From NCBI RefSeq assembly GCF_017908595.1, contig NZ_JAGKTL010000004.1:1-64000 (forward strand): a stretch of DNA of 64,000 nucleotides, given 5' to 3'. Below the pieces are notes generated by a model. The model made no database searches. It was given only the letters and a program-made list of their open reading frames with translations, and was not told the origin of the DNA. This document shows, in pieces, positions 48,434 to 59,233 of the stretch. The translations under genes were made by a program, and so were the position numbers. The stretch is from Rhodothermus bifroesti. GTDB taxonomy: Bacteria; Bacteroidota; Rhodothermia; Rhodothermales; Rhodothermaceae. Numbering within the stretch: the first letter of the stretch is position 1; the number at the start of each line of letters is the position of its first letter.

Positions 48434-49366
48434 TCAGGGGATCACTTTATTGAGGGGATACTCAATAATCCCTTCAGCACCGGCGCGTTTGAGCTCAGGA
48501 ATCAGGCGACGCACTTCTTTTTCTTCGATGATCGTTTCAATAGCCACCCATTCTTCCCCGTCAGAGGCTAGGGGAGAAATGGTCGGGCGCCGCAGGGCTG
48601 GCAGCATCTGGATAATTTGCTCTAAATCCGCTTTACGAGCATTCATTTTCAACCCTACGCGATGCTCCGCCCGAATAGCGCCTTCCATGAGCAACGCAAT
48701 GTTTTCAATCTTGCGGCGTTTCCAAGGGTCTTGCCAGGCTTGTTTGTTGGCGATAAGCTGCGTGTTGGACTCCATAAGCACTTCCAGAATGCGCAACCGG
48801 TTCGCCCGAAGCGAAGCGCCGGTTTCGGTCACTTCCACGATAGCATCTACCAGCTCCGGACACTTGGCCTCGGTGGCGCCCCAAGAGAATTCCACCTCGG
48901 CCTCTACGCCACGCTCGGCCAGCCAGCGCCGGGTCAGGTTAACGACTTCTGTGGCAATACGCTTACCTTGTAGATCCTGCACAGACCGAATGTCGGCGTC
49001 TTCTGCTACCGCAAGTACCCAACGCACCGGCCGCATGCTTTGCTTGGAATAGATCAGATCGGCTACCGTAACCACATCGGCGCCTGTTTCCAGAACCCAG
49101 TCTTTACCCGTGATGCCCGCATCAAAAACCCCCTCTTCCACATAACGGGCCATCTCCTGGGCGCGAACGAGCATGGCGCTGAGCTCTTCGTCGTCCGTAG
49201 AAGGAAAATAGGAGCGTTCACTAACACTGAACTTAAATCCTGCTTTTTCGAGCAGTTCCAGCGTAGCCTGTTGGAGGCTGCCTTTAGGCAGTCCTAGGCG
49301 CAGCACGCGGCGCGTCTGTGTCTTATCTGCCGCTGTGGTTACTGCAAAAGCTGTTTCTGTAGACAT
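48434..49366 (-). CDS. hisG: ATP phosphoribosyltransferase, long form
   Basis: 310 residues, which is the long form with its own C-terminal regulatory ACT-like domain (no HisZ needed). It joins ATP and PRPP in the first step of histidine synthesis. Conserved parts are [20 protein letters not shown], then [19 protein letters not shown], and the PRPP-binding region [16 protein letters not shown]. The C-terminal [30 protein letters not shown] ends like other long HisG proteins. It lies 22 bases downstream of the DUF4837 gene at the tail of the tryptophan operon, so histidine and tryptophan synthesis may be partly linked through readthrough. No other his gene is here. Confidence 0.96.
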
Positions 49367-49388: not shown

Positions 49389-50492
49389 TTAAGGTATTGC
49401 TGGTTGTGCAGCCGCTTCTTCTTCACGGGTTCGAAACGTGTAGGCAATCGCCTCCATTTGGCGTAAAAACTCCCGCTTTGTAAAGCCTGGAGCAAAGACC
49501 ATCCCGTCGATCATGTAGATGCGGCCACTGGCCTGGTCGTAGAAAGCGTAGTTCACAAACGGACCGCCCATACCGGCTGGCAAAAGCTGGCCATCTGGCA
49601 TAAGGGTTACCATGTGCCACAGGCCGCGTGTTTCATAGCCATAGCGGCCTAAAAAGTTAATTGCACGCGTCTCTAAGGGCTGGCGGTAATCGATTTGGAC
49701 AAACCCTCCTGCATTCCCCTGCAGGTAGTGCCGAGCGAGCGAGTCTCGGGTGGCATAGATCCAGGCCGGAGTCAGTTTGGCTGGATCAGCGCCTTCTTCA
49801 TAGTACACAAACAGGCTTCGCCAGGTATCGGGCAGAATGCGTCGCAGCCAGACAAACCGGGTAGTATCAATAGCAATCAGATAGTCGTGCTGGACGTTAA
49901 CAGCAAAACCATGATGGGCCATCAGGGTGTCTTCGAGCGCCTGTTGGCGACCTTTTTCAAACATTTCGGCCGTAAGCCGCTCGCGGCTGGCTTCTGCAAA
50001 AGCTTCGCGCAGGCGTAGTGCACCTTCACGGATAGCGGCTACAAGCTGGGTATCGGTTGACGCTACAATGAAATACACCAATTGTCGCCGGCGCCACAAG
50101 TCATGCCGCGGCACGATCGCGGCTGTTCCCTGCTGCACCACCTGCAGCGCTTCGGCAGAAAAGGCCTGCTGCACCAGGCGTGACACGCGGCCAGAATCAC
50201 TCAGCGCAGCCACAAAGAGGACGTTTTTAAATTTTTTCACCTGATTCAGCGCATCTTGGGTTCGGGGCTCAAGCGGGCGTAACGTAAAAAGCGGTTCTGG
50301 ATTGGGCAGCGTTTGTACATAATAGCCCAGGGCAGCACGCAATGCGTCACCGACCGGCCCCTGCCACAACGCTGAATCGATCACTACCTGGATTTCGCCT
50401 TCTTCCCCAAGAGCCAGCGGCCGATAATCGACGTTTCCACACCCCCAGATCCCCACCAGAAATAAAGGCCAAAAAACCAAGCGAAAGGGCAT
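49389..50492 (-). CDS. DUF4837 family lipoprotein
   Basis: About 367 residues from the ATG at 50492, with GAGGT before it. A lipobox VGIWGC near residue 17 marks it as a lipoprotein. The sequence follows DUF4837: ALGEEGEIQVVIDSALWQGP, then RAALGYYVQTLPNPEPLFTL, and later AWIYATRDSLARHYLQGN. The family is common in Bacteroidota, with no known function. It lies between trpA and hisG, 65 bases after trpA, so it is probably co-transcribed. Confidence 0.85.
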   Translation of the reverse strand: MPFRLVFWPLFLVGIWGCGNVDYRPLALGEEGEIQVVIDSALWQGPVGDALRAALGYYVQTLPNPEPLFTLRPLEPRTQDALNQVKKFKNVLFVAALSDSGRVSRLVQQAFSAEALQVVQQGTAAIVPRHDLWRRRQLVYFIVASTDTQLVAAIREGALRLREAFAEASRERLTAEMFEKGRQQALEDTLMAHHGFAVNVQHDYLIAIDTTRFVWLRRILPDTWRSLFVYYEEGADPAKLTPAWIYATRDSLARHYLQGNAGGFVQIDYRQPLETRAINFLGRYGYETRGLWHMVTLMPDGQLLPAGMGGPFVNYAFYDQASGRIYMIDGMVFAPGFTKREFLRQMEAIAYTFRTREEEAAAQPAIP

Positions 50493-50557
50493 GGGGATGA
50501 CCTCATGTTTATGACACAATCGCCCTTAGAACGTCCACAGCCAACCTAAGTGCCCTT

Positions 50558-51385
50558 TTAAGAAGCCGGCACTGAAGTACCATACTTGAGTTCATGCACA
50601 AATCGCTGCACGGCTTCCAGTCGATCTACGAGCGACAAGCCCGCATCGTCCCACAAGCGCTCTACAAGCCGAATCAGCGCTGAGCCTACGATAAATCCAT
50701 CGGTATGTCGACCTAAGCGCAGCGCATCTTCATGTGAACGAATGCCAAATCCCACCAGCAACGGATTACGTGTAACCAGCTGACGTGCGCGTGCTAAATA
50801 GGCCTCGATGGCTTCGTGGCTTTGAAGCGTACTGCCTGTTAGGCCCGTTATGGATACGGCATATACAAAGCCAGTGGCTAACGCATCGATCTGCTGGATG
50901 CGCTCGCTTGGCGTATTGGGTGCAATAAGGTAGACCATGGCCAGACCTGCTTCTTGGGCAGCTTCGGCCAACGCTTCGCTTTCTTCAGGTGGAAGATCGG
51001 CCAAAATCAACCCATCCACGCCTGCCTGCGCGGCATCCCGGCAAAACGCCTGCATGCCATAGCGATACACTGGGTTGACATAGCCCATAAGCAGCAACGG
51101 GGTCTGGCTACGCGACCGAAAAGCCTCGGCCATGTGTAAGACATCTACCAGACGGATTCCATGACGCAGGGCGCGTTCGCTGGCGCGCTGGATGGGCACG
51201 CCTTCGGCCAAGGGATCGCTAAACGGCATGCCCAGCTCAATGAAATCGGCCCCAGCCTCATCAATGACTTTTAGAAGCTCAAGCGTACTTTCCGGATCAG
51301 GGAATCCCCCGGTCAGAAACAGTCCCATAGCCTTCTCCCTTCGGGCTCGCAGCGTTGCGAACATCGATTGCAAGCGGGTTATCAT
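50558..51385 (-). CDS. trpA: Tryptophan synthase alpha subunit
   Basis: About 275 residues from the ATG at 51385, whose ATGA overlaps the trpB stop codon. Alpha splits indole-3-glycerol phosphate. The catalytic Glu and Asp lie in [16 protein letters not shown] and in the ADLPPEES segment ([10 protein letters not shown]). The phosphate site is [11 protein letters not shown] and [10 protein letters not shown]. The tight overlap with trpB suggests coupled translation in equal amounts for the alpha-beta-beta-alpha complex. The plus-strand frames here are shadows. Confidence 0.96.
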
Positions 51386-52617
51386 AGGTTGTTTGTGCAC
51401 TTACGCTCCAGGTAGCGGGCAATGGTACCCATGTCTTTGTCGCCGCGGCCAGAAAGATTCACCACCACGACAGCATCCGGGCCTAGTTCTTGGGCTAAAC
51501 GGGGCAAAAAGGCAATGGCGTGGGCTGTCTCTAGCGCTGGAATGATGCCCTCGGTACGCGCCAATAGTTGCACCCCTTCGAGTGCCTCTGCATCGGTGGC
51601 CGTCACATAGGTAACGCGACCTAAATCCTTGAGATAGGCATGTTCTGGTCCTACGCCGGGATAGTCAAGCCCAGCCGAGATCGAGTGGGCCAGCAATACT
51701 TGGCCATCGTCGTCCTGTAACAGGTAGCTCAAAGCACCGTGCAGAATGCCGGGTCTGCCGCAGCTCAGGGTAGCTGCATGACGACCCTCAAGTCCCTCGC
51801 CTGCGGCCTCCACCCCATACATACGCACGCAGCGATCGGTAAGGAAAGGATAAAACAATCCCATGGCATTGGACCCCCCTCCCACGCAGGCCACCAGCGC
51901 ATCAGGAGTCTCCCGTCCCAGTTGCTCAGCCAGTTGCTGCCGCACCTCATCGCCAATGATGCGCTGAAAATCCCGAACGATCATTGGATAGGGATGGGGC
52001 CCGACTACCGAACCAATGAGGTAAAAGGTATCGTGCACATTGGTCACCCAGTCTCGGATCGCTTCATTGGTAGCATCTTTTAACGTACGACTTCCGCTTT
52101 CGACCGGCCGTACTTCGGCTCCCAAAAGCTGCATCCGTAGCACGTTGAGCCGCTGGCGCTCCACGTCCTCAGCCCCCATGTACACGATGCACTGCATCCC
52201 GAAGCGGGCACAAACCGTTGCGGTAGCCACGCCATGTTGCCCTGCGCCGGTTTCGGCAATGATGCGCTTTTTGCCCATGCGCTGGGCTAGCAGAATCTGC
52301 CCCACGGTGTTATTGATTTTGTGCGCGCCGGTATGGCACAGGTCTTCTCGCTTCAGAAATACACGCATCCCGCCCAGACGCTCGCTTAAGCGTGGCGCAA
52401 AGGTTAGCGGTGTAGGCCGCCCCACATATTCACGCAACAGCGCGGCATAGTCCTCCCAGAAGGCCGGATCCTGTCGCGCTTCAGCATACGCTTGCCGCAA
52501 GGCCTCTAGGGCTGGAATCAGAATCTCAGGGACAAAGGCACCACCATACGGTCCGAAGTGACCACGGACGTCTGGGGCTTCATAGGTAAATGCAGTGTCT
52601 AGGTTGACCGATGCCAT
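51382..52617 (-). CDS. trpB: Tryptophan synthase beta subunit
   Basis: 411 residues. Beta joins indole and serine by a PLP reaction. The PLP lysine is in [11 protein letters not shown]. The phosphate loop is [17 protein letters not shown] and the C-terminal serine contact is [12 protein letters not shown]. Residues [19 protein letters not shown] form the catalytic Glu and substrate loop. It is the TrpB1 type, in agreement with the adjacent trpA. It lies 15 bases downstream of trpF. Confidence 0.97.
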
Positions 52618-52632
52618 AAAACTGCTTTGTCT

Positions 52633-53289
52633 TTAGCCAAAGGCTTCTTGCTTAAGCTGGGCGCGCAGGGCATGAAACACCTCAAAAAAGTGCGCAAGTT
52701 TATCTAGATCTTTCTTTCCCGGCCTGGCCTCCACACTGCTCGACAAGTCCACGCCCAGCGGCCGCATGGTGCGCACGGCTTCTTGGAGGTTATGCACACC
52801 GATGCCGCCAGCCAGTAAGATGGGAAAATCGGCAGCAAGCTCACGTGCCACACGCCAGTTGAACGACTCGCCTGTCCCCCCCCATAGGTTCGTTTTGTGC
52901 GTATCGAGCAAAAAGTAGGCAACCCAAGGTTGGTAGGGTTCCATGAGGGCACGGAGCTGTTCGGCCGAAGCATCGTGCACCACGTGAATGGCCTTAATGA
53001 CCGGTGCATCGATCTGTGCACACCACGCTGGCGGTTCGGTACCGTGTAGCTGCACCATTGTAAACCCCACTTCTTCGATCGCTCGATTAACCGCCTCAGG
53101 CGTGGCATTCACAAACACCCCTACTTTTTCGGGGCCGTGGATCCATTCAATAATTTCTCGAGCCACCTCTGGTGCTACATAACGAGGGCTTTCAGGATAT
53201 TGAATAAAGCCCAAAAAGTCTGCCCCTGCTGCAGCGCAAAAACGCGCATCTTCTAGATTCGTGATGCCACAAATTTTGACTTTAAGCAT
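52633..53289 (-). CDS. trpF: Phosphoribosylanthranilate isomerase
   Basis: 218 residues. It opens with VKICGITNLEDARFCAAAGAD (catalytic Cys). The catalytic Asp falls in YFLLDTHKTNLWGGTGESFNW. The phosphate-binding end is LLAGGIGVHNLQEAV and GVDLSSSVEARPGKKDLDKL. It isomerises PRA to CdRP, the substrate of TrpC. It lies 10 bases downstream of trpC as a separate gene, not fused as in enterobacteria. Confidence 0.97.
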   Translation of the reverse strand: MLKVKICGITNLEDARFCAAAGADFLGFIQYPESPRYVAPEVAREIIEWIHGPEKVGVFVNATPEAVNRAIEEVGFTMVQLHGTEPPAWCAQIDAPVIKAIHVVHDASAEQLRALMEPYQPWVAYFLLDTHKTNLWGGTGESFNWRVARELAADFPILLAGGIGVHNLQEAVRTMRPLGVDLSSSVEARPGKKDLDKLAHFFEVFHALRAQLKQEAFG

Positions 53290-53299
53290 GATGTATCCC

Positions 53300-54124
53300 T
53301 CATGAACCTACCAAGCGCAATACTACTGGCCGCTCTAAGCAGGCCTGCAACTCCTGCCGTAAAGCTTCCAACGCACGGCCTGGCTCCAGCGCGCGCATAA
53401 ACGTCTCCCCAATAAGAACAGCATCGATGCCGTTACGACGCAAGTAAGCCAGCTCTTCAGCCGTACGCAACCCGCTTTCGGCTACCCGTACGATGTGCGC
53501 TGGCACGCGCTGAAGCACCCGAACCGCCTGGGTCACATCGACCTCAAAGTTGTGCAGGTTGCGATTATTGACCCCTAAAATCTCGATCCGATCCAGGTCA
53601 AGCTGGTCCAGCTCTGCTTCTGCATGCACCTCTACCAAGCACGAAAGCCCTAGCTCAGTGGCCATGTCGTAAAGTTCATGCAGTTGCACTGGGTCGAGTA
53701 GCGCTGCAATAAGCAGCACCGCATCAGCACCATAGGCACGCGCTTCAATGAGCTGGTAGGGATCGAGGATAAAATCTTTGCGCAACAGGGGAAGATCGAC
53801 CGTGCGCCGCGCGGCTTCCAAATGCTCCAAACTGCCTTGGAAAAAGTCTGGCTCGGTGAGAACCGAAATGGCGGCAGCCCCATACCATTTGTACTGTTGG
53901 GCAATGTCCGATACGTTAAATTCGCGGCGTAGAATACCCTTCGAAGGCGAAGCTTTTTTAATCTCTGCAATGATGGCTAACTCGTCCGTGCGCAATGCTC
54001 GGGCCAGCGGTAGCGTGGGACTGTGGTAATGAGCGCGTTCTTGCAAGCATGTGATAGGTATGCGGCGTTTGCGCTCTTCAAGACGTTCGCGAACGGTTTG
54101 CGCAATGCGGTCTAAAATGGTCAT
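53300..54124 (-). CDS. trpC: Indole-3-glycerol phosphate synthase
   Basis: About 274 residues from the ATG at 54124, chosen because AGGAGG lies 8 bases before it and the family starts MTILDRIAQTVRERLEERK. The frame is open back to 54232 without further similarity. The catalytic Lys is in AIIAEIKKASPSKGIL and the second Lys and Glu in LRKDFILDPYQLIEARAYG. NNRNLHNFEVD and VAESGL complete the barrel. It forms the indole ring from CdRP. The 175-base gap to trpD is the largest within the core operon. Confidence 0.96.
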   Translation of the reverse strand: MTILDRIAQTVRERLEERKRRIPITCLQERAHYHSPTLPLARALRTDELAIIAEIKKASPSKGILRREFNVSDIAQQYKWYGAAAISVLTEPDFFQGSLEHLEAARRTVDLPLLRKDFILDPYQLIEARAYGADAVLLIAALLDPVQLHELYDMATELGLSCLVEVHAEAELDQLDLDRIEILGVNNRNLHNFEVDVTQAVRVLQRVPAHIVRVAESGLRTAEELAYLRRNGIDAVLIGETFMRALEPGRALEALRQELQACLERPVVLRLVGS

Positions 54125-54299
54125 GGCGGCTTCCTCCTGGCTACAATGAATGTTCTCGGACAACGTGTATAGGCGATGACTTACCTTGGCCCCAGCGGGG
54201 CCAGTAGACACGCCGCCCGAGAAATCGTTCATCGTGGCAAAGGCATCGCCACAATGGGCCAGGTGCCAAGCGCAAGTCTGCTGTATCCATAGCCTTTCC
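54125..54299 (-). other. Intercistronic gap trpD-trpC with GC-rich hairpin
   Basis: A 175-base spacer in an operon where the other core junctions overlap or are under 25 bases. On the minus strand it contains GGCCCC-GCT-GGGGCC (54188-54202) without a T-run and a weaker GTGGC/GCCAC stem. An internal promoter, a pause or processing site, or mere drift are possible; I see no convincing -35/-10. Confidence 0.4.
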
Positions 54300-55361
54300 T
54301 TAAGCCGCTGGTTGCGTAGCAGCCGATGCAGACGCTAGCTGACCAGATACCTCGATCAAGCGTTCCAAACGCGCGCGGGCAGCCCCGCTGTCGAGGCTTA
54401 CCCGTGCTGCTTCCAAGCAGGCTTGTAGGTCGTCGCCAAAACGACCGCTTACGTAAAGGGCATAAGCCGCATTGAGCAGTACCACATCGCGGTGCGGCCC
54501 CGGATCGCCAGAAAGTACTTGACGTAGCAATTTGGCATTGGCCGTCGCATCGCCACCGCGCAACTGTTCCAGCGGTACGCGTGGTAGCCCCAATGTTTCT
54601 GGCTCAATGCGTCCAGGACGTGGCACGGCATCGCCTAGCCGATACTCATACGTTGCCGTAGGCGCCGAAAGTGAGAGCTCATCGAGCCCATCTTCGCTGT
54701 GCACGGCGACCACATGTTCGGCTCCCAACCGCGCCAGGATCGCGGCCATCGTTGCCGCCACCTCGGCACGGAAAGCCCCCACTAGCTGCCGCCGCACACC
54801 GGCTGGATTACAGAGCGGCCCCAAGATATTGAAAAACGTCCGCACGCCCAGCGCCTTGCGCACGGGCATCACATGGCGCATGGCCGGATGAAACTTTGGA
54901 GCAAAGACAAAGGCGATGCCGGTTTCTTCTAAGCAACGCTCGACCCCCGCTGCATCGAGATCGATCACGACCCCTAGGGCTTCCAAAACGTCGGCCGATC
55001 CGGCCTGCGACGAAACCGATCGGTTACCGTGCTTGACCACCGTAACACCTGCACCAGCACACACAAAGGCCGCAGCTGTTGAGATATTGAACGTACCGGA
55101 CCGGTCGCCACCTGTGCCACACAGATCGATCGCATAAGGATCTTCGGTACGCACAGGTACCGCATACTGGCGCATTACGCGGGTAAAGCCTACGAGCTCA
55201 TCCAACGTTTCACCTCGGGCACGGAGGCCCAGCAGAAAGCCTGCAACCTGCTCAGGTGCGGCTTCACCACGCATCATCACATGCATGGCCGCCTCTGCCT
55301 CTTCCTGCGAAAGCGTGCGGCCTTCGGCCAAAGCCGTCAGGTAAGGATGCAAAGGATTCAT
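54300..55361 (-). CDS. trpD: Anthranilate phosphoribosyltransferase
   Basis: About 353 residues from the ATG at 55361, which overlaps the trpG stop as ATGA. The PRPP-binding loop is DLCGTGGDRSGTFNISTAAA and the anthranilate region is VVKHGNRSVSSQAGSADVLE. Also visible are FFNILGPLCNPAG and VVAVHSEDGLDELSL. It moves a phosphoribosyl group onto anthranilate made by TrpE/TrpG. It is not fused to TrpG. Confidence 0.97.
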   Translation of the reverse strand: MNPLHPYLTALAEGRTLSQEEAEAAMHVMMRGEAAPEQVAGFLLGLRARGETLDELVGFTRVMRQYAVPVRTEDPYAIDLCGTGGDRSGTFNISTAAAFVCAGAGVTVVKHGNRSVSSQAGSADVLEALGVVIDLDAAGVERCLEETGIAFVFAPKFHPAMRHVMPVRKALGVRTFFNILGPLCNPAGVRRQLVGAFRAEVAATMAAILARLGAEHVVAVHSEDGLDELSLSAPTATYEYRLGDAVPRPGRIEPETLGLPRVPLEQLRGGDATANAKLLRQVLSGDPGPHRDVVLLNAAYALYVSGRFGDDLQACLEAARVSLDSGAARARLERLIEVSGQLASASAATQPAA

Positions 55362-55969
55362 GGTTGGGTTGCTGTAAGCGTCTGAGACGCGAGAGGCCAC
55401 ATCTTCACCTGGCGCAGCCAGTTGGCTATTAGGCGTGGCCCTTCGGTAGTGAGCACACTTTCAGGGTGAAACTGCACCCCTTGAACTGGATAGTGGCGGT
55501 GGCGTAGTGCCATGATCACACCATCTTCGGTCCACGCCGTAACTTCCAGCACCTCGGGCAGCGTAGGCCGATCTACTACCAGCGAATGATAGCGTGTAGC
55601 GGTAAAGCCTTGAGCTGCGCCTTCAAACAGCCCTTGCCCGGTGTGATAGATCCGGCTTGTCTTGCCGTGCATCAGCGAGGGTGCATGCACCACGCGACCG
55701 CCATAGACTTCGCCAATGGCCTGATGGCCCAGGCATACCCCCAGGATAGGCGTGGTTGGCCCTAGCTCAGCAATAACCGCTTCGGTAATACCCGCCTCGG
55801 CTGGGCGCCCCGGTCCTGGGGAGATCAGAATGCCCTCAGGCCGCAAAGCCCGCACTTCTTCCACGGTGATGGCATCGTTGCGCACCACACGCACCTCGGA
55901 CGTATACCGACCCAGCAAGTGGACCAGGTTGTAGGTAAAGGAGTCGTAATTGTCGATAACCAAAATCAT
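55358..55969 (-). CDS. trpG: Anthranilate synthase component II (glutamine amidotransferase)
   Basis: 203 residues of class I glutamine amidotransferase. The nucleophilic Cys is in TPILGVCLGHQAIGEVYGG and the His-Glu pair in GVQFHPESVLT. The oxyanion strand is ILISPGPGRPAEAGI. It supplies ammonia to TrpE; as in many bacteria it could also serve PabB in folate synthesis. Both ends show ATGA overlaps: with trpS upstream and trpD downstream. Trp-operon context favours trpG over pabA. Confidence 0.95.
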   Translation of the reverse strand: MILVIDNYDSFTYNLVHLLGRYTSEVRVVRNDAITVEEVRALRPEGILISPGPGRPAEAGITEAVIAELGPTTPILGVCLGHQAIGEVYGGRVVHAPSLMHGKTSRIYHTGQGLFEGAAQGFTATRYHSLVVDRPTLPEVLEVTAWTEDGVIMALRHRHYPVQGVQFHPESVLTTEGPRLIANWLRQVKMWPLASQTLTATQP

Positions 55970-57033
55970 ATCGCCTCCGGACGATACGTCGTGTAGTTCA
56001 GCCCAACCAGCTCACGCACTTGCTCCATAATTTCCTGAGCCCGCTGCCGCGCTTTGCGCCCCCCTTCACGCAATACATCCATCACATAATCTGGATGGCG
56101 CAGCAGCGCACGCCGCCGCTCGCGGGCTTCAGCAAAATGCGCCTCAATAAGCCGAATCAGTTCTTTTTTGGCCTCGCCATAACCGTAACCGCCCTGTCGG
56201 TAAGCGTCTGCAATCCGGCTGCGCGTGGCTTCGTCGGCAAACAGCTTAATCAGGGCGAACACGTTGCAGCGCTCCGGATCCTTAGGCGCTTCGAGCGGCG
56301 TAGAGTCGGTCACAATCGCCATCACCTTTTTGCGCAGCGTTTTACCCTCGTCGAAAATACCTATCGTGTTGCCATAGCTTTTCGACATCTTGCGCCCATC
56401 AATACCAGGGACAACCGCCACTTCTTCCCGAATGAGCGGCTCTGGCAACGGGAACAGCGGCTGGTCTGGTGCACAAAACGTACGATTAAAGCGCTGCGCA
56501 ACGTCGCGGCAAATCTCGATGTTTTGCTTCTGATCGGCCCCCACGGGCACCAATGTGCCGCCGTAAATCAAAATATCTGCTGCCTGCAAAACAGGATAGT
56601 TCAGCAGCCCAGCATTGGCCGGTAGCCCCTGGGCAACTTTATCCTTATAGGCTACGCCTTTCTCGAGCGTGGAGACCGGTATCAGGTTATAAAAAATCCA
56701 GGCGAGCTCGGTTACCTCAGGTACGTCGCTTTGCACAAACAGCGCGGCCTTTTGGGGATCAAAACCCAGTGCCAGATAGGTAAGCGCTGCCTCGAAAGTG
56801 TAGCGCCGAAGCGCCTCACGATCGGCAATGGTGGTCAGGGCGTGATAGTTAACAATGAAGAAGTACGACTCATACTGCTGATGCAGTTCGATATGCTGAC
56901 GAATCGCCCCAAAGTAATTGCCTAAGTGCAGCTCACCTGAGGGTTGGATACCCGAAACCACAATGGTGCGCTGCTTCAAGCCACCTGTCGACAGGGCATG
57001 CTGCTGGATCGTTTCTGTCGAAACCGTACTCAT
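55966..57033 (-). CDS. trpS: Tryptophanyl-tRNA synthetase
   Basis: 355 residues, class I. The HIGH-like motif is in SGIQPSGELHLGNYFGA and the KMSKS motif in GIDGRKMSKSYGNTIGIF. The Trp/AMP pocket includes YPVLQAADILIYGG and VPVGADQKQNIEICRD. It charges tRNA-Trp. Its start ATG overlaps the stop of the preceding unknown gene, and its stop overlaps trpG's start. Placement within the biosynthetic operon and behind the attenuator is uncommon; it means low charged tRNA-Trp would raise both Trp synthesis and charging capacity. Confidence 0.97.
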   Translation of the reverse strand: MSTVSTETIQQHALSTGGLKQRTIVVSGIQPSGELHLGNYFGAIRQHIELHQQYESYFFIVNYHALTTIADREALRRYTFEAALTYLALGFDPQKAALFVQSDVPEVTELAWIFYNLIPVSTLEKGVAYKDKVAQGLPANAGLLNYPVLQAADILIYGGTLVPVGADQKQNIEICRDVAQRFNRTFCAPDQPLFPLPEPLIREEVAVVPGIDGRKMSKSYGNTIGIFDEGKTLRKKVMAIVTDSTPLEAPKDPERCNVFALIKLFADEATRSRIADAYRQGGYGYGEAKKELIRLIEAHFAEARERRRALLRHPDYVMDVLREGGRKARQRAQEIMEQVRELVGLNYTTYRPEAI

Positions 57034-57521
57034 GATGCTGCAGCAAAGGCTGGTTTCGGATAGCGCCGCGCCACTCCCTCTAGGTAACGCAGCCGCTCTT
57101 GGCTATGCTGCGCTACCAGGTTGAGGATGGCTTTGGTGCGGATTTGATGGTTAAGTTTAAGCTCAGCCTGCACTAGGGCTAACAGCTGCCGCTCAGCCTC
57201 CAACAAGCGATAAATCATTTCAGCTGGATCACTCCCTAGATTGAAGTCGCTGGGCTCCGTATCCACCCCACTGTAGGCCGTACCTCCAGCGCTAAAGACC
57301 ACCTCAGCCAGTTTGCCTACATCGGCGCGCGCGATTTTTTGAAACTGCTCCAACTGTTCCACCACATCGGCCTGGCCAAGTGCACGGATGACGTAATCGT
57401 GCTGGTGATTGAGTGCAATATGCGCACGAATCAGCGGATTAATGCGTTCGACGGTTTCTTGGCGGGAAAGCGACTTGCCGATGCCGCCTTTGTTGAAAAT
57501 CAGTTCTTTGAGCGAAGTCAT
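57030..57521 (-). CDS. Uncharacterised helical protein in the trp operon
   Basis: About 163 residues from the ATG at 57521; the frame is open to 57566 within the end of trpE. I do not recognise the family. The chain seems all-helical: RINPLIRAHIALNHQHDYVI, then LEQFQKIARADVGKLAEVVF, then a Gly/Asp-rich loop (TEPSDFNLG), then AEMIYRLLEAERQLLALVQA and TKAILNLVAQHSQERLRYLE. Repeated Glu/His on the helices recall a ferritin-like four-helix bundle, but a full diiron set is not clear. It lies 22 bases after trpE and its stop overlaps the trpS start (ATGA), so it is surely co-expressed with the trp genes. Its role is unknown. Confidence 0.8.
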   Translation of the reverse strand: MTSLKELIFNKGGIGKSLSRQETVERINPLIRAHIALNHQHDYVIRALGQADVVEQLEQFQKIARADVGKLAEVVFSAGGTAYSGVDTEPSDFNLGSDPAEMIYRLLEAERQLLALVQAELKLNHQIRTKAILNLVAQHSQERLRYLEGVARRYPKPAFAAAS

Positions 57522-57543: not shown

Positions 57544-59037
57544 TCAAAGTAAACCGGACGCTGCAATGCGCATCGCCTCGAGCAGGGCCCGAGCTTTACT
57601 CACCGTCTCCTCATACTCCCGGTCAGGATCGCTATCGGCCACAATGCCCGCTCCGGCCTGAACGTAGATCGTGCCGTTGCGAACGACCATCGTGCGGATC
57701 GCAATGCAAGTGTCCAAGTTCCCCGAAAAGTCCATGTACCCAACAGCTCCCGCGTAGACGCCTCGCCGCGTGGGCTCTAGCTCATCGATAATTTCCATCG
57801 CTCGCACTTTAGGAGCACCACTAACGGTCCCCGCTGGAAAACAGGCAGCCAACGCATCAAGCGCGTCGTGCTGGCCATCTAACTCGCCGGAAACCAGTGA
57901 GACCAGATGCATTACGTGCGAATAGCGTACTACAAAGGCAAAGCGCTCCACCTGCACCGAGCCAAAACGACACACGCGCCCTAAGTCGTTACGTCCCAGA
58001 TCAACCAGCATCAAGTGCTCAGCCTGCTCTTTAGGATCGGCCTCGAGTTCAGCCTCAAGTTGCCGATCTTCCTCAGGTGTACAACCACGCCTACGCGTGC
58101 CCGCAATAGGCAGCACTTCAGCCCGGCCTTGCTCGACGCGCACCAGCACTTCGGGCGAGGAGCCTACCAACGCCAAATCGCCAAAATCTAAGAAAAACAG
58201 ATAGGGCGACGGATTAACTTGGCGCAGTGCTCGGTACAAATTGAAGCGGTCTCCAGCAAAAGGCGTGGCAAAGCGTTGCGAAAGTACCACCTGAAAAATA
58301 TCGCCTTCGTAGATGTACTGCTTGGCCTTACGAACAGCTTCGCAAAAAGCCTCGCGCGTAAAGTTCGAGCGCAGCGGTGCCTCTGGAAGCACAACCGGTG
58401 CCGGCACTTCGACAGGAGTGTGCACCAAGGTTTCAGCCAATGCATTCAGCCGCAGAACGGCATTCTCATAAGCAGCGCGCAGATCCGTGTCGGGATCAAC
58501 AAACACACCAGCAATAAGCACAAGCTGATGACGCACGTGATCGAAGGCCACAACCGTATCATACAAGCCCCAACGTGCATCTGGCAAGCCCAGTTCATCC
58601 GGGGGGGGTGCAGGCAGCCGCTCTAGCTGCCGTACCATGTCATAGCCCAAGTAACCCACCGCTCCCCCTGTAAAGCGAGGGAGTTCGGGTAGGTGCACCG
58701 CATGATAGCGCCCTAACAACCGACGCATAAGGGTAAAAAAGTCTGCATCAACCCTCTCCACAGTGCCTGTAGCCATCTCTTGCTGGTAAACCTGACCGCC
58801 GCGCACCTCAAGCATTACGTACGGACGGACCCCTAAGAAAGAGTAGCGCCCAAGCGTTTCCCCCCCTTCGACGCTTTCCAGCAAAAAGCCAACTGGATTT
58901 GCCAACCGCAGCTTGAGAAAAGCCGAAACCGGCGTCAATAGATCGGCGCTTAACCTCCGGAAAACCGGCACAAATAAGTGCGTATAGCCGGCTGCTCGGT
59001 GCGTATCGACCAGCTGTTGAAACGCGTCGAACGTCAT
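57544..59037 (-). CDS. trpE: Anthranilate synthase component I
   Basis: 497 residues. It makes anthranilate from chorismate with ammonia from TrpG. The feedback (Trp-binding) motif is LLESVEGGETLGRYSFLGVR, where the LLES serine binds tryptophan. The chorismate-binding domain includes YEGDIFQVVLSQRF, GSSPEVLVRVEQGRAEVLPI and CFPAGTVSGAPKVRAMEII. The ATG at 59037 is only 13 bases past the U-run of the leader terminator. A GGAG sits just 2 bases before it, and the sequence before the start reads ATGGAGCTATGA, a three-codon frame whose stop overlaps the trpE ATG. Expression is predicted to be set by the attenuator upstream. Confidence 0.97.
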   Translation of the reverse strand: MTFDAFQQLVDTHRAAGYTHLFVPVFRRLSADLLTPVSAFLKLRLANPVGFLLESVEGGETLGRYSFLGVRPYVMLEVRGGQVYQQEMATGTVERVDADFFTLMRRLLGRYHAVHLPELPRFTGGAVGYLGYDMVRQLERLPAPPPDELGLPDARWGLYDTVVAFDHVRHQLVLIAGVFVDPDTDLRAAYENAVLRLNALAETLVHTPVEVPAPVVLPEAPLRSNFTREAFCEAVRKAKQYIYEGDIFQVVLSQRFATPFAGDRFNLYRALRQVNPSPYLFFLDFGDLALVGSSPEVLVRVEQGRAEVLPIAGTRRRGCTPEEDRQLEAELEADPKEQAEHLMLVDLGRNDLGRVCRFGSVQVERFAFVVRYSHVMHLVSLVSGELDGQHDALDALAACFPAGTVSGAPKVRAMEIIDELEPTRRGVYAGAVGYMDFSGNLDTCIAIRTMVVRNGTIYVQAGAGIVADSDPDREYEETVSKARALLEAMRIAASGLL

Positions 59038-59049
59038 AGCTCCATAACG

Positions 59050-59133
59050 AAAAAGCCCACTGCAGATCTTGCAGTGGGCCGCTTATTGTCGCTGTATAAA
59101 GTGTGTCGTCTAGGCACGCGCGCAGCCCACTGC
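59050..59133 (-). promoter_or_regulatory. trp attenuator: antiterminator / terminator switch
   Basis: Seen in the leader RNA (minus strand). Segment 1, GCCCACU (59169-59163), lies just before the Trp codons. Segment 2, GCAGUGGGCUGC (59133-59122), follows them. Segment 3, GCGGCCCACUGC (59082-59071), and segment 4, UGCAGUGGGC (59064-59055), come next, then UUUUU (59054-59050). 1:2 pair over 7 bp; 2:3 pair over 12 bp (antiterminator); 3:4 form a perfect 10-bp stem with a 5-base loop (terminator). This is the classical layout: stalling at the Trp codons blocks 1 and frees 2 to pair with 3; reading to the stop codon covers 2 and lets 3:4 terminate. Confidence 0.9.
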
Positions 59134-59196
59134 GGAGGCGGTAAACCACCACCAACCAAAATAGTGGGCGCTATGGTAAGCAACGTGCCGCATCAT
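59110..59196 (-). CDS. trpL: trp leader peptide with three tandem Trp codons
   Basis: A 28-codon frame beginning ATG ATG and ending TAG. Residues 13-19 read FGWWWFT, from TTT GGT TGG TGG TGG TTT ACC; the Trp codons are at 59154-59146. No longer in-frame start exists because a TAG lies 24 bases upstream. No clear Shine-Dalgarno site is visible, which is common in this phylum. The stop codon lies 10 bases beyond attenuator segment 2, so a ribosome finishing the peptide would cover that segment. The role is regulatory sensing of charged tRNA-Trp, not a functional peptide. Confidence 0.9.
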   Translation of the reverse strand: MMRHVAYHSAHYFGWWWFTASAVGCARA

Positions 59197-59203
59197 GGTT
59201 TTA

Positions 59204-59233
59204 AAGATACAGCAATCCTAGAGCCATTGACAA
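59204..59233 (-). promoter_or_regulatory. Candidate promoter of the trp operon
   Basis: On the minus strand TTGTCA, 18 bases, TATCTT, ending 7 bases before the trpL ATG. TATCTTTA also resembles the Bacteroidota -7 element (TAnnTTTG). If used, the transcript would begin almost at the leader ATG, which would make trpL nearly leaderless. The true start could be upstream. Confidence 0.4.

Follow-up and report, generated by a model that had tools for sequence, protein, structure and literature searches.

The trp operon in the window, by which we mean the whole 64,000-nucleotide stretch that was analysed, is very probably controlled by a ribosome-mediated (leader-peptide) transcription attenuator, judging from its sequence and that of its relatives. 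Leader-peptide attenuation is a classical mechanism, and an earlier note on this DNA had interpreted the region upstream of trpE as ribosome-dependent trp attenuation. Our comparative test supports that interpretation, as tandem Trp codons are kept among relatives and RNA segments 2 to 4 covary. The arrangement is confirmed to be conserved and to lie far beyond chance. The note also knew of no description of such an attenuator in a Rhodothermales-type bacterium, and a limited literature search found no paper on Rhodothermales trp attenuation. The attenuator is not an isolated oddity: it occurs across the order and the wider class, and in parts of the GTDB phylum Bacteroidota as well. What we add is this breadth, a predicted leaderless start, a sole trpS within the operon and an order-specific ferritin-like gene.

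The leader and the operon it precedes

A trp leader-peptide ORF (ATGATG...TAG) occupies 59110..59196 on the minus strand and encodes MMRHVAYHSAHYFGWWWFTASAVGCARA, a peptide found in near-identical form in five congeneric genomes. It carries three tandem Trp codons, TGG TGG TGG (TGGTGGTGG, 59146..59154, minus strand), and such W-runs are kept in relatives; upstream of trp genes we had looked for at least two tandem Trp codons, and the window leader has WWW. The earlier description of a 28-codon leader ORF with three tandem TGG codons was thus confirmed on the minus strand at 59196-59110, counting from the first ATG to the TAG stop at 59112-59110. In a genus alignment the first ATG is replaced by ACG in five relatives of the genus, so the conserved leader start is probably the second ATG, at 59193, giving 27 codons. 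The 5' end of the ORF reads ATGATGCGGCAC and lies five bases 3' of TATCTTTA.

Four segments of the leader, all on the minus strand, alternate in complementarity. Segment 1, GCCCACU (DNA GCCCACT, 59163..59169), can pair with segment 2, GCAGUGGGCUGC (DNA GCAGTGGGCTGC, 59122..59133), which starts 21 nt downstream of the first UGG. Segment 3, GCGGCCCACUGC (DNA GCGGCCCACTGC, 59071..59082), is common to two mutually exclusive structures: the 2:3 antiterminator, a 12-bp helix including one G-U, and the 3:4 terminator, in which its partner is segment 4, UGCAGUGGGC (59055..59064). Folding, a terminator scan and relatives all identify 3:4 as an intrinsic terminator (59050..59079) between the leader ORF and the first gene. 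Its hairpin, GCCCACTGCA-AGATC-TGCAGTGGGC at 59079-59055, has a 10-bp stem and a 5-nt loop and is followed by a T5 run at 59054-59050. The leader fold was more stable than 200 of 200 dinucleotide shuffles (z -4.2), and the 3:4 hairpin was the top terminator-like site in the surrounding 8 kb. Of the exclusive stems proposed earlier, 2:3 (12 bp) and 3:4 (10 bp plus T5) were borne out, while 1:2 found support within the genus only. The gap from the T-run to the trpE ATG (59037) measures 12 nt, not the 13 bases first claimed.

The genes 3' of the leader run in one direction, all on the minus strand. The first structural gene, trpE (57544..59037), encodes anthranilate synthase component I (TIGR00564, 579.5 bits against a cut-off of 517.7); it is followed by a gene for a four-helix-bundle protein (57030..57521), trpS for tryptophanyl-tRNA synthetase (55966..57033; TIGR00233), trpG (55358..55969; TIGR00566), trpD (54300..55400; TIGR01245), trpC (53300..54232; PF00218, NF001377), trpF (52633..53289; PF00697), trpB (51382..52617; TIGR00263), trpA (50558..51400; TIGR00262) and a DUF4837 gene. 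All operon genes would be carried on one transcript. The DUF4837 gene (49389-50519, minus strand) and hisG (48434-49366, minus strand) lie directly 3' of trpA, an arrangement shared by R. marinus-like and f10 genomes, and from this layout hisG may be on the same transcript as the trp genes.

Two members of this operon stand out. The genome has two PF00579 matches, the trpS here and a tyrS elsewhere, so the operon trpS is the only tryptophanyl-tRNA synthetase found in the genome. In most of the order, trpS lies within the trp operon. The gene between trpE and trpS gave no Pfam or NCBIfam match in profile searches; its AlphaFold model (pLDDT 92) resembles Dps and ferritin in Foldseek (TM ~0.7, E ~5e-4), and this order-specific operon member is therefore predicted to have a Dps/ferritin-like four-helix bundle. 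It is present in single copy, is confined to this order in the phylum sample, and sits between trpE and trpS in nearly all of the order's loci.

Conservation and covariation of the leader

We sampled TrpE loci at three levels in the GTDB sense: 114 genomes within the order, further genomes from elsewhere in the class, and genomes from outside the class but within the phylum. The 300 nt before each trpE were scanned with a single script for a short ORF with at least two Trp in four codons, then a terminator, plus an antiterminator. Leader, terminator and antiterminator were found together at 58 of 91 same-order loci and at 34 of 40 loci from other orders of the class, where W-runs were present at 39 of 40. 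Among other classes of the phylum the full combination was found at 6 of 38 loci and leader plus terminator at 19 of 38. Dinucleotide shuffles gave the full call in 1 of 845 cases (1/455 for the order, 0/200 for other orders, 0/190 for other classes), and regions upstream of other ORFs in 1 of 235. A 400-nt search, broken down by family of the order, was positive at 60 of 92 loci, or 61 with L007, where another ORF was picked; the positives fell in 13 of the 14 families having usable loci.

About a third of the order's loci are without a recognisable leader, though most of these retain the operon. The negatives include most of family f3 and all of family f14. Most f3 loci (L053, L058-L060 and others) lack a recognisable Trp leader yet keep the operon, and trp control there must therefore differ. 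In f14 (L030, L036, L057) there is no Trp leader, trpE lies apart from the other trp genes and the ferritin-like gene is missing. No leader was found at the several loci of family f28 in the phylum-level sample. Tandem Trp runs as long as four codons (WWWW) are seen at some loci of other classes (L239, L241, L243, L244, L247, L270-L272); most leaders of this type have a terminator, with little 2:3 pairing by the criterion applied, and their antiterminator may be built differently.

The earlier note had proposed aligning relatives' leaders upstream of trpE, and in this alignment the tandem Trp codons are retained and segments 2 to 4 vary in concert. We anchored the covariation alignment on the CCC/GGG core of the three segments. 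At position 3 of segments 2-3-4 the combination is C-G-C in 29 sequences (6 families) and U-A-U in 21 (6 families), and at position -1 it is U-A-U in 23 sequences and C-G-C in 19; the segment-2 register was picked to maximise pairing, which biases the 2:3 counts upward. The swap test gives both sides the same freedom. When segments were swapped between families of the order, the cognate pairing was the stronger in 2425 of 2994 comparisons for 2:3 (81%) and in 2681 of 2994 for 3:4 (90%). The 2:3 antiterminator, 12 bp in the window, is thus accompanied by compensatory change in both tests.

The 1:2 stem is kept within the genus, and cognate beat swapped in 63% of comparisons across the order and 55% across the class. 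This weak result beyond the genus suggests that the protector stem is peculiar to the genus rather than shared by the wider group, and on the order-level figure we dropped segment 1 as a conserved feature of the order.

Rfam is without a model that detects these leaders. Against RF00513 (Trp_leader) the window leader scored 25.6 bits, below the gathering threshold of 41, and the leaders of 15 relatives gave no Rfam match above threshold either. At a relaxed threshold, a congener scored similarly, below threshold, against unrelated hairpin RNAs and sRNAs; since these were its best matches, we gave the 25.6-bit score no weight. Elsewhere in the same genome, scans of ~1.5 kb upstream of ilvB, leuA, pheA (PDT) and three aspartate-kinase genes, a distance at which operon starts may be missed, found no leader-plus-terminator.

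Promoter, proposed switch and alternative readings

Upstream of the leader lies a putative promoter of the Bacteroidota type. A putative -33 element, TTG (59231..59233, minus strand), is separated by a 21-nt spacer from a putative -7 box, TATCTTTA (59202..59209, minus strand; consensus TAnnTTTG); the -33 element was placed by sequence and genus alignment, the -7 box is kept in the genus, and both accord with the promoter offsets measured in 93 leaders of the class. In 54 of 59 leaders of the order and 32 of 34 from other orders of the class, 4-8 nt separate the end of the best TTG-TAnnTTTG match from the leader ATG; with the range widened to 0-11 nt, shuffles still reach only 16-20%. In Flavobacterium psychrophilum the -7 box spans -12 to -5 (PMC9723704), so transcription would be expected to start 0-4 nt before the leader ATG. 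By this analogy the predicted start is ~59197 (59195..59199, minus strand), with a 5' UTR of ~1-4 nt. Because the promoter is so near the leader ATG, the leader ORF is predicted to have a very short 5' UTR or none. Only a small fraction of F. psychrophilum mRNAs is leaderless (5.5%; PMC9723704), and 5' UTRs shorter than 10 nt make up ~3.7% in B. thetaiotaomicron (PMC7366714). Shine-Dalgarno enrichment was not found among ORFs of the window (1/35 against 1.1 expected, for a small sample with mechanical ORF starts).

These features suggest how the switch would work. RNA polymerase would initiate ~1-4 nt 5' of the leader ATG, and translation of the nearly leaderless transcript would begin with no Shine-Dalgarno sequence to guide the ribosome. 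When tRNA-Trp is poorly charged, the ribosome would stall at the three UGG codons, and segment 2, left exposed, would pair with the emerging segment 3; this would block the terminator and allow transcription of trpE-(ferritin-like gene)-trpS-trpGDCFBA. When tRNA-Trp is charged, the ribosome would reach the UAG and occlude the greater part of segment 2, so that segments 3 and 4 would fold into the terminator just before trpE. We infer that control is exerted by charged tRNA-Trp, and likewise the transcription start, translation of the leader, termination in vivo and the response to tryptophan. With the sole trpS inside the operon, tryptophan and its charging enzyme should be raised by the same circuit, which would thereby feed back on the signal that it senses.

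The spacing agrees with such a switch, in that a ribosome stalled at the Trp codons would free segment 2 and one at the stop codon would cover it: in most leaders 12-25 nt lie between the last Trp codon and the end of the GGG core of segment 2, and the stop codon lies ~10 nt 3' of segment 2. At equilibrium the full-length window leader forms the 3:4 terminator under any ribosome mask, and since the terminator always wins there, the switch would have to be a kinetic one, as the classical model also holds. We therefore simulated switching on a transcript cut at the end of segment 3, with segment 4 still inside the polymerase, under a ribosome mask. The trp leader of E. coli, which served as the control, behaved as expected, with 2:3 at 0.62 under stall and 0.03 at the stop. 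Across 94 leaders of the class, 2:3 was higher with stall than stop by more than 0.3 in 40, the reverse held in 1, and the rest were within 0.3. For the window leader the contrast was modest, 1.00 (stall) versus 0.62 (stop). Without a ribosome its 2:3 pairing was again 1.00, favoured over 1:2, unlike in E. coli; this simulation suggests that an untranslated window leader might read through, although the kinetics of 1:2 could alter that.

Could the hairpin instead have arisen by chance, or be an ordinary terminator belonging to an upstream gene, beside a chance Trp-rich ORF? Neither component is rare, with 15 terminator-like hairpins found in 8 kb against 10.9 expected and TGGTGGTGG present 90 times in the whole genome. 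However, the upstream neighbour of the leader is a divergent ccmF-like gene, so that no gene reads into the hairpin and it does not terminate one. The segments covary, and leader, terminator and antiterminator occur jointly at ~64% of trpE loci, compared with 0.2% of shuffles and 0.4% of regions upstream of other genes. Conservation set against these shuffle and other-gene controls led us to reject a chance origin, and we regard this explanation as a whole as extremely improbable. A second possibility is that the leader senses translation generally, or works through translational coupling or occlusion of the trpE start, not through transcription termination. With just 12 nt between it and the trpE start, the hairpin could hinder initiation too, in a phylum that does not rely on Shine-Dalgarno pairing, as indicated by the window ORFs and by the F. 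psychrophilum study (PMC9723704). Yet a U-run directly follows the GC-rich stem in almost every relative, where the terminator often lies 30-100 nt upstream of trpE, too far to hide its start codon, and a general sensor of translation sits poorly with Trp codons specifically, upstream of trp genes. We consider this very unlikely.

TRAP- and T-box-type elements govern trp genes in Firmicutes, and a protein- or tRNA-binding element (a TRAP site, a T-box or the site of another RNA-binding regulator) might by the same token control the terminator here, the ORF being incidental. The leader holds scattered UAG triplets only, with no (G/U)AG array, and the W-runs are conserved at the codon level while the peptide around them differs. 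The T-box model (RF00230) had no match in the window at the gathering score, nor in the leader at E up to 10, and on this covariance-model result we rejected a T-box. TrpR repression was rejected as well, a search for trpR having found no TrpR. The chance that such an element is at work seems to us negligible, and ribosome-mediated attenuation remains our reading of the leader.

Implications and relation to known systems

With slightly more confidence than doubt, we propose that a leaderless, Shine-Dalgarno-free trp attenuator is ancestral to Rhodothermia and to much of the GTDB phylum Bacteroidota, and that in Rhodothermales it forms a closed loop through the only trpS, with an order-specific ferritin-like partner. 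If so, classical coupled attenuation operates in bacteria whose promoters are unusual and whose translation initiation is independent of Shine-Dalgarno pairing. Charged-tRNA-sensing trp control would be placed in a deep-branching thermophile, in many relatives across its class and in further classes of the phylum; the literature we found describes such control in these groups only in passing. This raises the question of how transcription and translation could be coupled tightly enough for attenuation without a Shine-Dalgarno sequence, on a transcript that seemingly begins at the start codon. The only trpS lying in the operon also makes for a simple feedback circuit to model.

Candidate amino-acid attenuators in some Bacteroidetes/Chlorobi were reportedly among those listed by Vitreschak et al. 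in 2004, and Lopatovskaya et al. are said to have described candidate attenuators in 2010. Naville and Gautheret (2010; PMC2965389) stated that, until their Firmicutes case, no leader peptide had been demonstrated outside Proteobacteria and Actinobacteria. In the B. thetaiotaomicron map, some short ORFs are likened to leader peptides (PMC7366714). From the same broad lineage, the F. psychrophilum transcriptome study reports strong clues for leader-peptide attenuation before amino-acid biosynthesis operons, with structured 5' regions, leader peptides and TAnnTTTG promoters as at our locus; trp is not named in its main text (PMC9723704).

The trpLE(G) attenuator of Sinorhizobium meliloti resembles the one described here in having a leaderless trpL, its RNA starting at the ATG as is predicted for ours, and in attenuating without a transcription repressor (PMC7298713). 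It differs in its unrelated leader sequence, its 14-aa peptide and its control of trpE(G) only, and trans functions are known for both its peptide and its RNA (PMC7298713).

By sequence anatomy, the window leader is a member of the ribosome-mediated trp attenuators. It shares with E. coli trpL the tandem-Trp leader ORF, the 2:3 antiterminator, the 3:4 terminator with its U-run before trpE, and the same folding switch in simulation. There are three TGG codons here and two in E. coli, and the peptide has 27-28 residues here as opposed to 14. Unlike E. coli trpL, it has no Shine-Dalgarno sequence and a start predicted to be nearly leaderless, it occurs with no TrpR and with trpS inside the operon, and its 1:2 stem is poorly conserved. 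A synthetase under an attenuator that reads its own product has a precedent in the E. coli pheST operon with its pheM leader; the likeness lies in an aminoacyl-tRNA synthetase being placed under an attenuator, and the difference in that the synthetase gene here sits inside the biosynthetic operon.
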